NCBI RefSeq assembly: GCF_030643805.1
Contig: NZ_CP094656.1
Coordinates: 3,286,001-3,350,000 of the forward strand
From: Alkalihalobacillus sp. AL-G
GTDB lineage: Bacteria > Bacillota > Bacilli > Bacillales > Fictibacillaceae
DNA length: 64,000 nt
Direction of reading: 5' to 3'
Part shown: in pieces, positions 26,372 through 35,667 of the stretch
How the letters are laid out: each line of letters opens with the position of its first letter
How positions within the stretch are numbered: the first letter of the stretch is position 1
The notes under the pieces: model-generated
Seen by the model: the letters and a program-made list of their open reading frames with translations, nothing else
The model's database searches: none
What the model was told of the DNA's origin: nothing
Translations under genes and position numbers: made by a program

Positions 26372-27571
26372 TTAAAATAGCTTCAGTTTACCCTTTTTCA
26401 CAACAAGTGGTATTCCGCCGAGTAAGAAGAGATAACGGTTATCGATTATCTTTTTCATAGCCGCTGCTGTTGCGCCATATAATTTCTTGTTTCCAACCTT
26501 ACCGATTGCTTCGCCTTTACCGAGAGAGGCTACGGTACCTTTAATTTCTGGTACAAACCCTTCCGTCTTACCACCGTTGATGATCGCTTTCATGTTACGA
26601 GCAACAGTGAATGCTTGTTGGATCGCAATTTGGGCTGTTGGAGGGAATGGCCGGTTGATCTCCTCATTAATGATCAATGCACAATCTCCAACGATGAAGA
26701 TGTGATCATGACCAGGAGCGCGTAAGTCTTTCTCAACTTTAATACGGCCTCTCATCGTTTCGAACCCTGAGTTTTCAACGATTGAATTTCCGCGGATACC
26801 TGTAGTCCAAACGATTGTATCAGACTTGATTTCTCCCTCTTCAAGAACGACACCGTCTTCGGTAACTTCTTTAATCGGCGTACCTAGCATAAATTCAACA
26901 CCTTTACGCTCAAGTAAGTTAACCGCATACTCAACTAGTTCTTCATCAAACCCTGGAAGTACGGTAGGAGCCGCTTCCGCACAGATCAGGCGTACCTTTT
27001 CACGTGGTACATCGTATTCTGCACAAAGCTCTGGAATGCGATCAGCCATTTCACCAATGAATTCAATCCCTGTAAATCCTGCACCCGCAACAACGATGGT
27101 AAGCATGCTGTCAGAAGGGTTTGGCTCGTTGTTATAGCTTGCAAACTTATATTCAATATGTTCTTTTATTTCACGAACTGTGTTGACACTGCGAATGTTA
27201 AACGCATAGTCTTTTACTCCAGGAATTCCGAACGTTTCCGATTCAAAACCAAGACCAATCACGAGATAATCATAATTGAGTTCTCCATTTTCTAACTTGA
27301 CCGTCTTGCTTGCATCATCAATCGAAACAACTGTATCTTGAACAAAATTAACTCGATTTGTATCAATGACTTCTTTAATCGGCATACGCGTACGATCGTG
27401 ATGCATTGTTCCTGCTGCCGGCTCGTGAAGCCATGTTGTTTGATAGTGATAATTATGTTTGTTTACGAGTGTGATTTCAGCCTCGTTCATACCGAGCTCT
27501 TTCGTTAAACGAGTGGCTGTCATAATTCCACCGTACCCAGCTCCAAGAATAACAATATGTGGTCTGCTCAT
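26372..27571 (-). CDS. yumB: NDH-2-like NAD(P)H dehydrogenase (YumB)
   Basis: The 399-residue flavoprotein belongs to the type II NADH dehydrogenase family. It has an N-terminal FAD Rossmann motif GAGYGG (residues 10-15), an NAD-binding motif GAGFTGIE in the middle, and the second FAD segment VGDCA. The C-terminal helix ending in KLF suits peripheral membrane binding. It should oxidise NADH and reduce quinone. AAAGGTGG precedes ATG 27571. A second NDH-2-like module lies at 34238-35305. Confidence 0.9.
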
Positions 27572-33273: not shown

Positions 33274-33510
33274 TTAAAACATCGGATTTTCTTCTAGATA
33301 TTGATATATATTATCGACAAGTTCTTCTGGTGTTTCTGCGGGTACGTAATCACCATTTACAAGTGCATAGGGTGATTGAAAGCATTGACCACAGTTTCCC
33401 AGACATCCATATTCGATTACATCCAAGTTCGGGTCCTTTTCAAGTACTTCCCTTGCCCGTTGAGATCCGTTTGCCAAATTACTGACACAAAATTCGATGA
33501 TCGGTCTCAT
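33274..33510 (-). CDS. yuzB: YuzB family protein (DUF1450)
   Basis: The 78-residue protein has four cysteines (C9 region FCVSN, then CLGNCGQC), a possible metal or cluster site. The family function is unknown. Length equals that of B. subtilis YuzB. ATG 33510 has AAGGTGG at eight bases; ATG 33531 upstream has no site. It is divergent from the TetR-NDH gene, as yuzB is next to yutJ in B. subtilis. Confidence 0.9.
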
Positions 33511-33600
33511 ATTCAACCACCTTCTTTCCATCCTATCCTACCGCCACACTACATTCCTAGTCAACTTCTTGAACCGACAGTGTCATTTTTTCACGGATTG

Positions 33601-33646
33601 TTGTAGATTTGTCACAATTTCGATATACTAAAAATGACCACGGTCA
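33601..33646 (+). promoter_or_regulatory. Promoter and candidate TetR operator of the fusion gene
   Basis: A -35-like TTGTAG at 33601 and -10-like TATACT at 33624 are 17 bases apart. The inverted repeat TGACC-AC-GGTCA at 33635-33646 sits on the predicted transcription start, where binding by the encoded TetR domain would give autorepression. Confidence 0.5.
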
Positions 33647-33664
33647 CCAAAGGAGATACTACCT

Positions 33665-35305
33665 GTGAACCGCGACCAAAAACGAACGATTACCGAAGAA
33701 CGAATTGTTAAAGCCTCATTAGAATTATTTTATGAAAAAGGATATGCACAAACGAGTGTGAAAGAGATCACCGAAAAAGCTCGTATCGCAAAAGGGACGT
33801 TCTTTAATTATTTCCCTACTAAAGAAGCTCTCATGCAACATATTGCAAAAGAGCGATTAGAAAGCCTTTTCATTTTGATAAATAAAGGGTACATTTTATC
33901 ACAACCGATGAAAAAACAAATAGAAGGTATTGTAAGACATTTATTGGCCTACTATGACCTCGATGCCGAATTCACTAGGGACCTGTGGGCGACCATTTTC
34001 AAATATGAAAGTCCATTGACAATGTGTTGGATTGAGATTTTAAAACGCGCAATACTAAGAGGAGAACTTCAAAAAAAAATGGATGTAAAGCGCTGTGCAA
34101 ATGTTTGCAACAGCCATTTCCACTATGTGTTGTCTTCCTCACAAGAAAGCGAATCGAAAGACATGCTCGTTGATCGTTTCATGACATTGTTGGATTTTAG
34201 TATACAAGGAATTCAGGAAAAAAGGGGAAATGACAGAATGAAAAAACTCGTCATCTTAGGTGCTGGTTATGGTGGAATGAAGATTGTAAGCGGATTGCTC
34301 GAATCTTCTGATCTCCCAGAAGATATTCAAATCACACTGGTCGATCGACTTCCGTACCACTGTTTAAAAACTGAATACTACGCTCTTGCAGCCGGAACAA
34401 TTTCTGATCAGCATATCCGGGTCAGCTTTCCCGAAGATTCGAGGGTCATAGTTAAATATGGTGAAGTGTCGAATATCGATTTAGCTGGAAAAACGATTCA
34501 CTTTGATAACAAAGATGCTATCGATTATGACGACCTGATCATTGGGCTTGGGTGTGAAGACAAATATCACGATGTTCCTGGTGCACCCGAGAATACATTA
34601 AGCATCCAAACGATCGATAGGTCCCGCGAAACGTATCAGGTACTTAATAACCTGCCTCCACAGGGGGTTGTCGGTGTCGTCGGCGGAGGATTAAGCGGTG
34701 TTGAATTGGCAAGTGAATTGCGCGAAAGCCGTCCTGACTTAACGATTAAGCTTTTCGACCGCGGGGAAACGATCCTGTCTGCCTTCCCGAAACGATTAAG
34801 CAATTATGTACAAAACTGGTTTATCGAACATGGTGTTGAGGTTGTCAACCATTCCAACATTACGAAAGTTGAACCAAACACCCTTCACAATCATGATGAG
34901 GCGGTTACATGTGATGCCATCGTTTGGACAGCTGGAATTCAACCGAATCGACTCGTACGCGAGATGGATGTCGAAAAGGATGAATCTGGCCGGATCGTCC
35001 TTTCACCACACCATCATTTGCCGAACGACAAGCACGTTTTTGTAGTTGGTGATTGCGCAAGCCTGCCACATGCTCCAAGTGCCCAATTAGCAGAAGGCCA
35101 AGGGGACCAAATCGTCGAGGTTTTGTTAAAGTTATGGAAAAATGAACCACTTAGTAAGCTACCGAAAATCAAGCTTAAAGGTGTGCTCGGTTCACTCGGG
35201 AAAAAACACGGCTTCGGTTTGATGGGTAACACCGCCCTTACTGGAAGGGTTCCCCGCTTGCTGAAATCCGGAATCCTTTGGATGTACAAGCATCATACTT
35301 CTTAA
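33665..35305 (+). CDS. yutJ: TetR-family regulator fused to NDH-2-like oxidoreductase (YutJ)
   Basis: One uninterrupted 546-codon frame starts at GTG 33665, ten bases after AAAGGAG. Residues 1-191 are a TetR-family repressor: helix-turn-helix at about 13-60 (SVKEITEKARIAKGTFFNYF), then an all-helical ligand domain. Residues 192-546 are a full-length NDH-2-type flavoprotein with FAD motif GAGYGG at 199-204, NAD motif GGGLSGVE and VGDCAS; 355 residues equals the length I recall for B. subtilis YutJ. ATG 34238 begins the NDH part and has AAGGGG about ten bases upstream, so an internal start may also give free YutJ. It is divergent from yuzB. No stop or frameshift is visible at the junction. The fusion could sense redox or flavin state. 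Confidence 0.85.
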   Translation: MNRDQKRTITEERIVKASLELFYEKGYAQTSVKEITEKARIAKGTFFNYFPTKEALMQHIAKERLESLFILINKGYILSQPMKKQIEGIVRHLLAYYDLDAEFTRDLWATIFKYESPLTMCWIEILKRAILRGELQKKMDVKRCANVCNSHFHYVLSSSQESESKDMLVDRFMTLLDFSIQGIQEKRGNDRMKKLVILGAGYGGMKIVSGLLESSDLPEDIQITLVDRLPYHCLKTEYYALAAGTISDQHIRVSFPEDSRVIVKYGEVSNIDLAGKTIHFDNKDAIDYDDLIIGLGCEDKYHDVPGAPENTLSIQTIDRSRETYQVLNNLPPQGVVGVVGGGLSGVELASELRESRPDLTIKLFDRGETILSAFPKRLSNYVQNWFIEHGVEVVNHSNITKVEPNTLHNHDEAVTCDAIVWTAGIQPNRLVREMDVEKDESGRIVLSPHHHLPNDKHVFVVGDCASLPHAPSAQLAEGQGDQIVEVLLKLWKNEPLSKLPKIKLKGVLGSLGKKHGFGLMGNTALTGRVPRLLKSGILWMYKHHTS

Positions 35306-35439: not shown

Positions 35440-35667
35440 ATGGAAATGCGTGGACAAGTGGAAGAGGTACTTGATAAATTACGTCCATTCCTGCTTCGTG
35501 ACGGTGGAGACGTTGAGCTCGTAGACATCGAAGACGGAATCGTGAAGGTTCGATTGATGGGGGCATGCGGTAGCTGCCCAAGTTCAACAATCACACTTAA
35601 AGCAGGCATTGAGCGTGCGTTACTAGAAGAAGTACCTGGAGTAAAGGAACTCGAACAAGTTTTTTAA
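35440..35667 (+). CDS. yutI: NifU-like Fe-S protein (YutI)
   Basis: The 75-residue protein is a stand-alone NifU C-terminal domain with the CxxC cluster ligand pair in GACGSCPSS. Such Nfu proteins carry or deliver iron-sulfur clusters. ATG 35440 has AAAGGGG at eight bases; the ATG at 35398 lies in the promoter region and is rejected. It follows the fusion gene by 134 bp, which holds a separate promoter and a possible Fur/PerR box. Terminator follows. Confidence 0.93.

Follow-up and report, generated by a model that had tools for sequence, protein, structure and literature searches.

The window, by which we mean the whole stretch of 64,000 nucleotides that was analysed, contains an uninterrupted reading frame of 546 codons at 33665-35305 on the forward strand. 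According to the reading-frame check of the window, it runs from GTG to TAA. The frame encodes a TetR-type regulator followed by a YutJ-type flavoprotein, and it is flanked by a divergent and a downstream gene. The genes and domains of the locus are as follows.

33274..33531, minus strand: yuzB-type gene, divergent neighbour
33665..33844, plus strand: TetR DNA-binding domain, residues 1-60 of the fused protein (Pfam TetR_N)
33845..34216, plus strand: all-helical C-terminal domain of the TetR part, residues 61-184 (AlphaFold helices to 184)
34217..34237, plus strand: linker (residues 185-191), whose codons also contain the internal Shine-Dalgarno sequence (pLDDT below 50 at 186-190)
34238..35305, plus strand: FAD/NAD flavoprotein module of the YutJ type (residues 192-546), which has an ATG of its own (Pfam Pyr_redox_2, Foldseek)
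35440..35667, plus strand: NifU-like gene (yutI type), downstream

The original prediction had described a single 546-codon frame that joins a complete TetR regulator to a complete YutJ-type flavoprotein, and both the open reading frame and the Pfam assignments confirm this. TetR_N is matched by residues 14-59 (56.9 bits, with a cut-off of 24) and Pyr_redox_2 by residues 194-476 (126.5 bits, with a cut-off of 26.1). The accompanying claim that neither a stop nor a frameshift interrupts the junction also holds, as the frame is open and the junction is gap-free in 24 aligned proteins. An AlphaFold model, for which the 24 fused proteins served as input alignment, has TetR helices at residues 3-184 and a two-Rossmann flavoprotein from residue 193 (mean pLDDT 78.5, pTM 0.54). 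The weak stretches of the flavoprotein are residues 240-251, 425-427 and 528-546, the first and last of which have a pLDDT below 50. In the model a short linker connects the two folds, whose mutual placement is not fixed by a pTM of 0.54.

Two hallmarks of the TetR family, an N-terminal helix-turn-helix and an all-helical C-terminal domain, are present in the first part according to Pfam and the model. The second part shows both nucleotide motifs and the FAD and NAD(P) Rossmann folds of the NDH-2 type, and its GxGYG and GxGLSG stretches are kept in the 24 aligned fused proteins.

The divergent gene, which we take to be yuzB, lies upstream in 53/53 fused and 68/68 unfused loci of the comparison set described below. 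Since it is in place in all loci, the TetR part lies in the interval that separates yuzB from yutJ. The NifU-like gene downstream, presumably yutI, is found on the same strand in 35 of the 53 fused and 57 of the 68 unfused loci, a count in which many fused loci have too little flank to tell. This neighbour would be in keeping with a possible iron-sulfur or ferredoxin connection. About 6 kb away in the window (26372-27571, minus strand) lies a second gene for an NDH-2-type flavoprotein, presumably YumB-like, whose product is 33% identical to the YutJ part; the genome thus has other enzymes of that fold.

Distribution and history of the fused frame

A contig search found 394 YutJ relatives, 80 of which were kept, and in 23 of these a match to TetR lies in one open frame with YutJ. 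When the start codon nearest to 191 codons ahead of the YutJ start was chosen for each of the 23, it lay exactly 191 codons ahead in 18 and 190 codons ahead in 5. Within the genus of the window the fusion is present in 8/8 genomes. In the rest of the family (26 genomes), 25 have an unfused YutJ and one has no match, and unfused YutJ is also frequent among the Bacillaceae relatives. An order-wide draw gave a YutJ match in 349 of 397 genomes, and at least 39 of the 349 match over the full length of the fused protein. Stops do not end a match in this search but are counted, and all 39 full-length matches listed are free of internal ones. Together with five more genomes of the genus, these 39 make 44 fused genomes that span 19 genera and seven families. 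Seventeen selected genomes with weaker matches were searched again, and all of them proved to be unfused.

For the comparisons below, de-duplication left 53 distinct fused and 68 distinct unfused loci; a second copy of the window (L089) and loci of identical sequence were left out of the counts. L015, a locus of Alkalihalophilus pseudofirmus OF4, has the fusion. The fused loci had been chosen because a long open frame precedes YutJ in them (150 codons or more, and 187 or more in nine loci), so their freedom from stops follows from the choice. The reality of the fusion is tested independently by the read-through search and by a search for TetR ahead of unfused genes. In the latter, the 68 distinct unfused yutJ loci were scanned with a TetR profile over up to 1.5 kb of upstream sequence in six frames, with no match (best E 0.9). 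In 17 further unfused loci, the three forward frames of up to 1.2 kb upstream gave none at E of 1 or below. Across these 85 unfused loci, the profile detects no separate TetR gene beside yutJ.

The ratio of nonsynonymous to synonymous change (dN/dS) is 0.06-0.24 in the TetR part (ten pairs) and 0.02-0.08 in the YutJ part (nine computable pairs), values that place the TetR part under purifying selection. The two parts also differ in their estimated synonymous divergence, which is lower in the TetR part (33668-34219) than in the YutJ part (34241-35302) in 9/9 computable pairs, perhaps as an effect of saturation or composition.

A stop or frameshift missed between two ordinary adjoining genes would give the same appearance in one assembly. 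As an explanation it is hardly conceivable here: the 53 distinct fused loci come from many assemblies and share the same frame at nearly equal length, the full-length matches listed carry no stop, and selection acts on the TetR part. Judged by these comparisons, the fusion is one selected reading frame and not a sequencing slip.

In a rooted tree, four unfused genomes are nested in fused clades on well-supported branches (L216-L218 of f36, and L210, which is G270, of f3). As far as the branching order tells, these genomes seem to have lost the TetR part naturally while keeping yutJ. From the set of unfused loci, 32 entered the tree, two of which are duplicates (L007 and L010), so that 38 of the 68 distinct ones were not included. 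It needs four changes between the fused and unfused states, and its outgroup shows signs of long branches meeting; an earlier quick tree built without an outgroup needed two. The number of changes does not separate one gain with losses from several gains.

Candidate promoter, operator and internal start

The following signals are located ahead of the fused frame and at its junction.

33601..33606, plus strand: -35-like box TTGTAG, read from the sequence, with a 17-base spacer to the -10-like box
33624..33629, plus strand: -10-like box TATACT
33635..33646, plus strand: palindrome TGACCACGGTCA, candidate operator, 5 bases after the -10-like box and over the expected transcription start
33649..33655, plus strand: Shine-Dalgarno sequence AAAGGAG for the long product, read from the sequence
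34220..34227, plus strand: internal Shine-Dalgarno sequence AAAAGGGG, ahead of the internal ATG at 34238

A TAWAHT hexamer lies 5-7 bases before the operator in 51/53 fused loci. When 51 fused loci are aligned on the -10-like box, a GTTGT stretch is conserved at the -35 position, and 31 of them have TTGTTG 18-22 bases before the -10-like box. A plain consensus promoter scan of the window did not have the inferred promoter among its calls.

The operator pattern, which was defined after the first fused loci had been seen, separates fused from unfused genes. The sequence TGACCNNGGTCA stands ahead of 43/44 fused genes and of 0/68 unfused ones, and the 284 kb covered by the 44 fused loci contain no further copy of it. 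Nine further, diverged fused loci carry TGACCNNGGTCA or a close variant at the same place. In the looser form TGAC-N4-GTCA, the palindrome is present in 53/53 fused loci and 1/68 unfused loci, and the four nested unfused genomes lack TGACN4GTCA within 1.2 kb upstream. The 4.16-Mb genome of the window contains TGACCNNGGTCA once, at the promoter of the fused gene, while a control pattern has no match. The palindromic operator at a regulated promoter that characterizes TetR regulators is thus observed as a footprint in all 53 fused loci.

On the tree, the association of TetR part and operator amounts to three independent pairs on well-supported branches (four on all branches), with none in the opposite direction and a median sign-test p of 0.25. 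With so few independent changes the test is not significant, and the case for autoregulation rests on the combined pattern. On this pattern, the fused gene is probably autoregulated via the predicted operator.

The exact operator is not fixed. Of the 44 fused genomes, G282 and G399 lack the exact sequence altogether, and the exact copies listed for G083, G174, G291 and G311 all lie elsewhere than at the fused gene. Where the exact operator is missing, the promoter has variants such as TGACCGCAGTCA, TGACCAGAGTCA and TGACTCAGGTCA. Each of the 44 genomes contains between zero and six exact TGACCNNGGTCA sites, with control counts of zero to four, and a wider regulon with further targets elsewhere may exist in some fused genomes. 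Four genomes (G081, G223, G148 and G175) have 4-6 TGACCNNGGTCA sites each and 0-1 control matches, and a pair of these sites about 1.2 kb apart is found in both G081 and G223. The extra sites in the four genomes are possible further targets of the regulator.

The junction contains a second conserved signal. An SD-like hexamer precedes the internal ATG in 53/53 fused loci, as compared with 11 of 553 other in-frame ATGs of the same genes. The list of hexamers was compiled after the sites had been seen and was applied alike to internal and control ATGs. The arginine encoded at the ribosome site uses the codon AGG in 50/53 loci, the corresponding figure for arginines elsewhere in these genes being 72/1334. 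In the three exceptions (L178, L181 and L182), Lys-Arg-Gly is replaced by Lys-Gly-Gly, and the ribosome site is preserved. The codon after this arginine specifies Gly, Arg or Ser, and the purine-rich site is retained. The RNA signal is therefore conserved more strongly than the peptide, because residues vary while the ribosome site stays.

These observations support the earlier suggestion that the internal ATG at 34238 may yield the flavoprotein alone. A conserved internal Shine-Dalgarno sequence points to two products, one long and one short, and the gene very probably makes both a long autorepressor-enzyme and a short enzyme, to judge from the conservation of this site. In those fused genes whose sequence was read, the ribosome site and the ATG look to be some 10 bases apart, as against 8-9 bases in several unfused genes, an impression rather than a systematic count.

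A similar junction peptide ahead of yutJ in Sutcliffiella had raised the suspicion of a decayed TetR gene. This was rejected, as the TetR profile finds nothing there; by sequence, the likeness is that of the ribosome-binding site only.

The strength of the internal start (53/53 loci) is also what one would expect if the short form were the working enzyme and the long form mainly a repressor, with its flavoprotein part as dead weight or stabiliser. Negative feedback without a signal would then hold the level of YutJ. The unfused genomes nested in fused clades, which keep YutJ alone, agree with such an arrangement as well. Under it, nothing would be lost by a stop placed ahead of the internal start, yet the fusion is stop-free in 19 genera and the junction is gap-free in the aligned proteins. 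We consider this explanation improbable.

Candidate sensor and relation to known systems

Conservation within the fused protein was compared with that of FadR in the 24 genomes that have both proteins (FadR was over the cut-off in 24 of the 31 genomes searched). In the pocket domain of the fused TetR part (residues 61-183), 3 of 123 positions are invariant, as against 24 of 133 in the pocket domain of FadR, and pocket-domain identity is lower in the fused TetR part in 255 of 276 genome pairs. Since the DNA-binding domain of the fused TetR part is likewise less conserved than that of FadR (21/60 and 25/55 invariant positions), the contrast is in part a general one. In the YutJ part, 146 of 355 positions are invariant across 24 genomes.

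The combination of a poorly conserved pocket with a highly conserved YutJ part points to the flavoprotein as the sensor. It suggests, at the level of sequence, that the TetR pocket has been freed from strong ligand constraint and that sensing has moved to the flavoprotein, as in PutA. Weak conservation of the pocket may alternatively reflect fast evolution, or ligands that differ between lineages.

An ordinary autorepressor acting in cis would account for the autoregulation equally well. In that case the TetR part would sense a small molecule of its own, for instance an acyl-CoA, and control yutJ; the enzyme would sense nothing, and the fusion would merely keep the two together. In the AlphaFold model the C-terminal domain of the TetR part is complete, and the best TetR-type PDB matches of this part include 1vi0 and 3whb; both observations agree with this alternative. 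The pocket domain is, however, barely conserved by comparison with FadR in the same genomes, and stops between the two genes would be expected in some lineages, whereas the 39 full-length matches listed have none. On balance we regard an ordinary autorepressor as unlikely, though it deserves to be kept in mind.

Our preferred interpretation, to which we assign a probability of roughly 0.6, is that the gene encodes a self-regulating ('trigger') flavoenzyme that combines a repressor, an enzyme and a nested short product. The long product, as a TetR dimer, would bind the palindrome over the transcription start and repress its own gene. The flavoprotein part would serve as the sensor, its redox state or a partner (NADH/FAD, ferredoxin, or a membrane/quinone contact) altering the TetR part; the sensor state may instead draw the TetR part off the DNA. 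Expression would rise when more enzyme is needed. From the same mRNA, the internal start would provide enzyme without repressor, and the short chains may form mixed dimers with long ones.

The proposal of a direct redox or NADH sensor, made from the window alone, is a plausible reading that we share as a preference. The redox state of NADH/FAD, or ferredoxin, are the leading guesses for the signal, and contact with the membrane or quinone could be another. A bolder version of the self-regulating flavoenzyme can be formulated, in which the electron flow through YutJ, from NADH towards ferredoxin or quinone, would be read directly as operator occupancy. The nested start would set the ratio of free enzyme to enzyme-repressor, mixed dimers would tune repression, and the whole would represent a second, independently evolved redox switch of the PutA kind. 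We offer this version tentatively and lean slightly away from it in its full form.

The best Foldseek match of the fused protein is chain A of 9a5s, an integrative model titled YUTJ-FER, with 67% identity over the flavoprotein part. The matched chain has 355 residues, which is the length of the short form, and lacks a TetR part. Its organism is presumably Bacillus subtilis, in which yutJ is assumed to be unfused, as the original prediction had stated. We read FER in the title as ferredoxin; the main text of two papers on the crosslinking work mentions neither YutJ nor ferredoxin. The next matches after 9a5s are YjlD and the NDH-2 of Caldalkalibacillus.

The NDH-2 label given to the flavoprotein beforehand stands as far as the fold is concerned, with 26-27% identity to the Caldalkalibacillus NDH-2; the nearest model is titled YUTJ-FER instead. 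The two-Rossmann fold and both nucleotide-binding motifs are common to the YutJ part and NDH-2 (Caldalkalibacillus 4nwz, B. subtilis YjlD 9pxk), as are a Glu after the second motif and an Ala-Gln before the C-terminal part, residues that we presume to have functional roles in NDH-2. The NDH-2-type matches listed, from Bacillus, Caldalkalibacillus and Staphylococcus, are 22-28% identical, and the TetR fusion is a feature of the protein described here. The alignment to 4nwz ends at residue 383 of 405, leaving the last C-terminal residues unmatched, and it is the C-terminal stretch 528-546 of the fused protein that is weakly modelled. The flavoprotein is thus of the NDH-2 type by its predicted fold, with a putative quinone reductase activity and a putative membrane anchor.

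PutA, the proline catabolic flavoenzyme of enterobacteria, represses its own gene. It shares with the fused protein the presence of a DNA-binding domain and a flavoenzyme in one chain. PutA consists of a ribbon-helix-helix domain and a proline dehydrogenase, whereas the fused gene combines TetR with an NDH-2 fold. Neither PutA domain is among the 11 Pfam families matched by the fused protein, which is therefore not a PutA; the likeness would be in the outline of its working. We know of no nested start in PutA.

FadR/YsiA (1vi0, 3whb) has the same TetR fold and is among the nearest solved relatives of the N-terminal part. The entry 3whb is a fatty acid metabolism regulator, and 1vi0, titled only 'transcriptional regulator', is presumably YsiA/FadR of B. 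subtilis. FadR/YsiA is a separate protein with an acyl-CoA pocket and an operator that differs from that of the fused TetR part. Rex of Bacillus is an NADH/NAD+-sensing repressor in which a Rossmann-domain redox sensor is joined to a DNA-binding domain. It has a winged helix and no enzyme activity, and its fold is other than that of the fused protein.

A fusion of TetR with NDH-2 or YutJ is not described in any title or abstract opening listed in a search that covered few subscription journals. The architecture may well stand in domain-architecture databases without comment. YutJ is widespread in the order, and among the listed papers that contain the word YutJ, some of them unrelated, none is about this protein by its title. 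Should the fused protein respond to the redox state of the flavin it carries, the operator would offer a ready reporter of the cellular role of YutJ. The fused gene would then provide an independent example of a flavoenzyme acting as its own transcription factor, and its novelty would lie in a self-regulating flavoenzyme built from new parts together with a nested second product.

Genus names alluding to alkali or salt are borne by 19 of the 23 contig records with a fusion. As names, these may hint at the conditions under which the switch matters.
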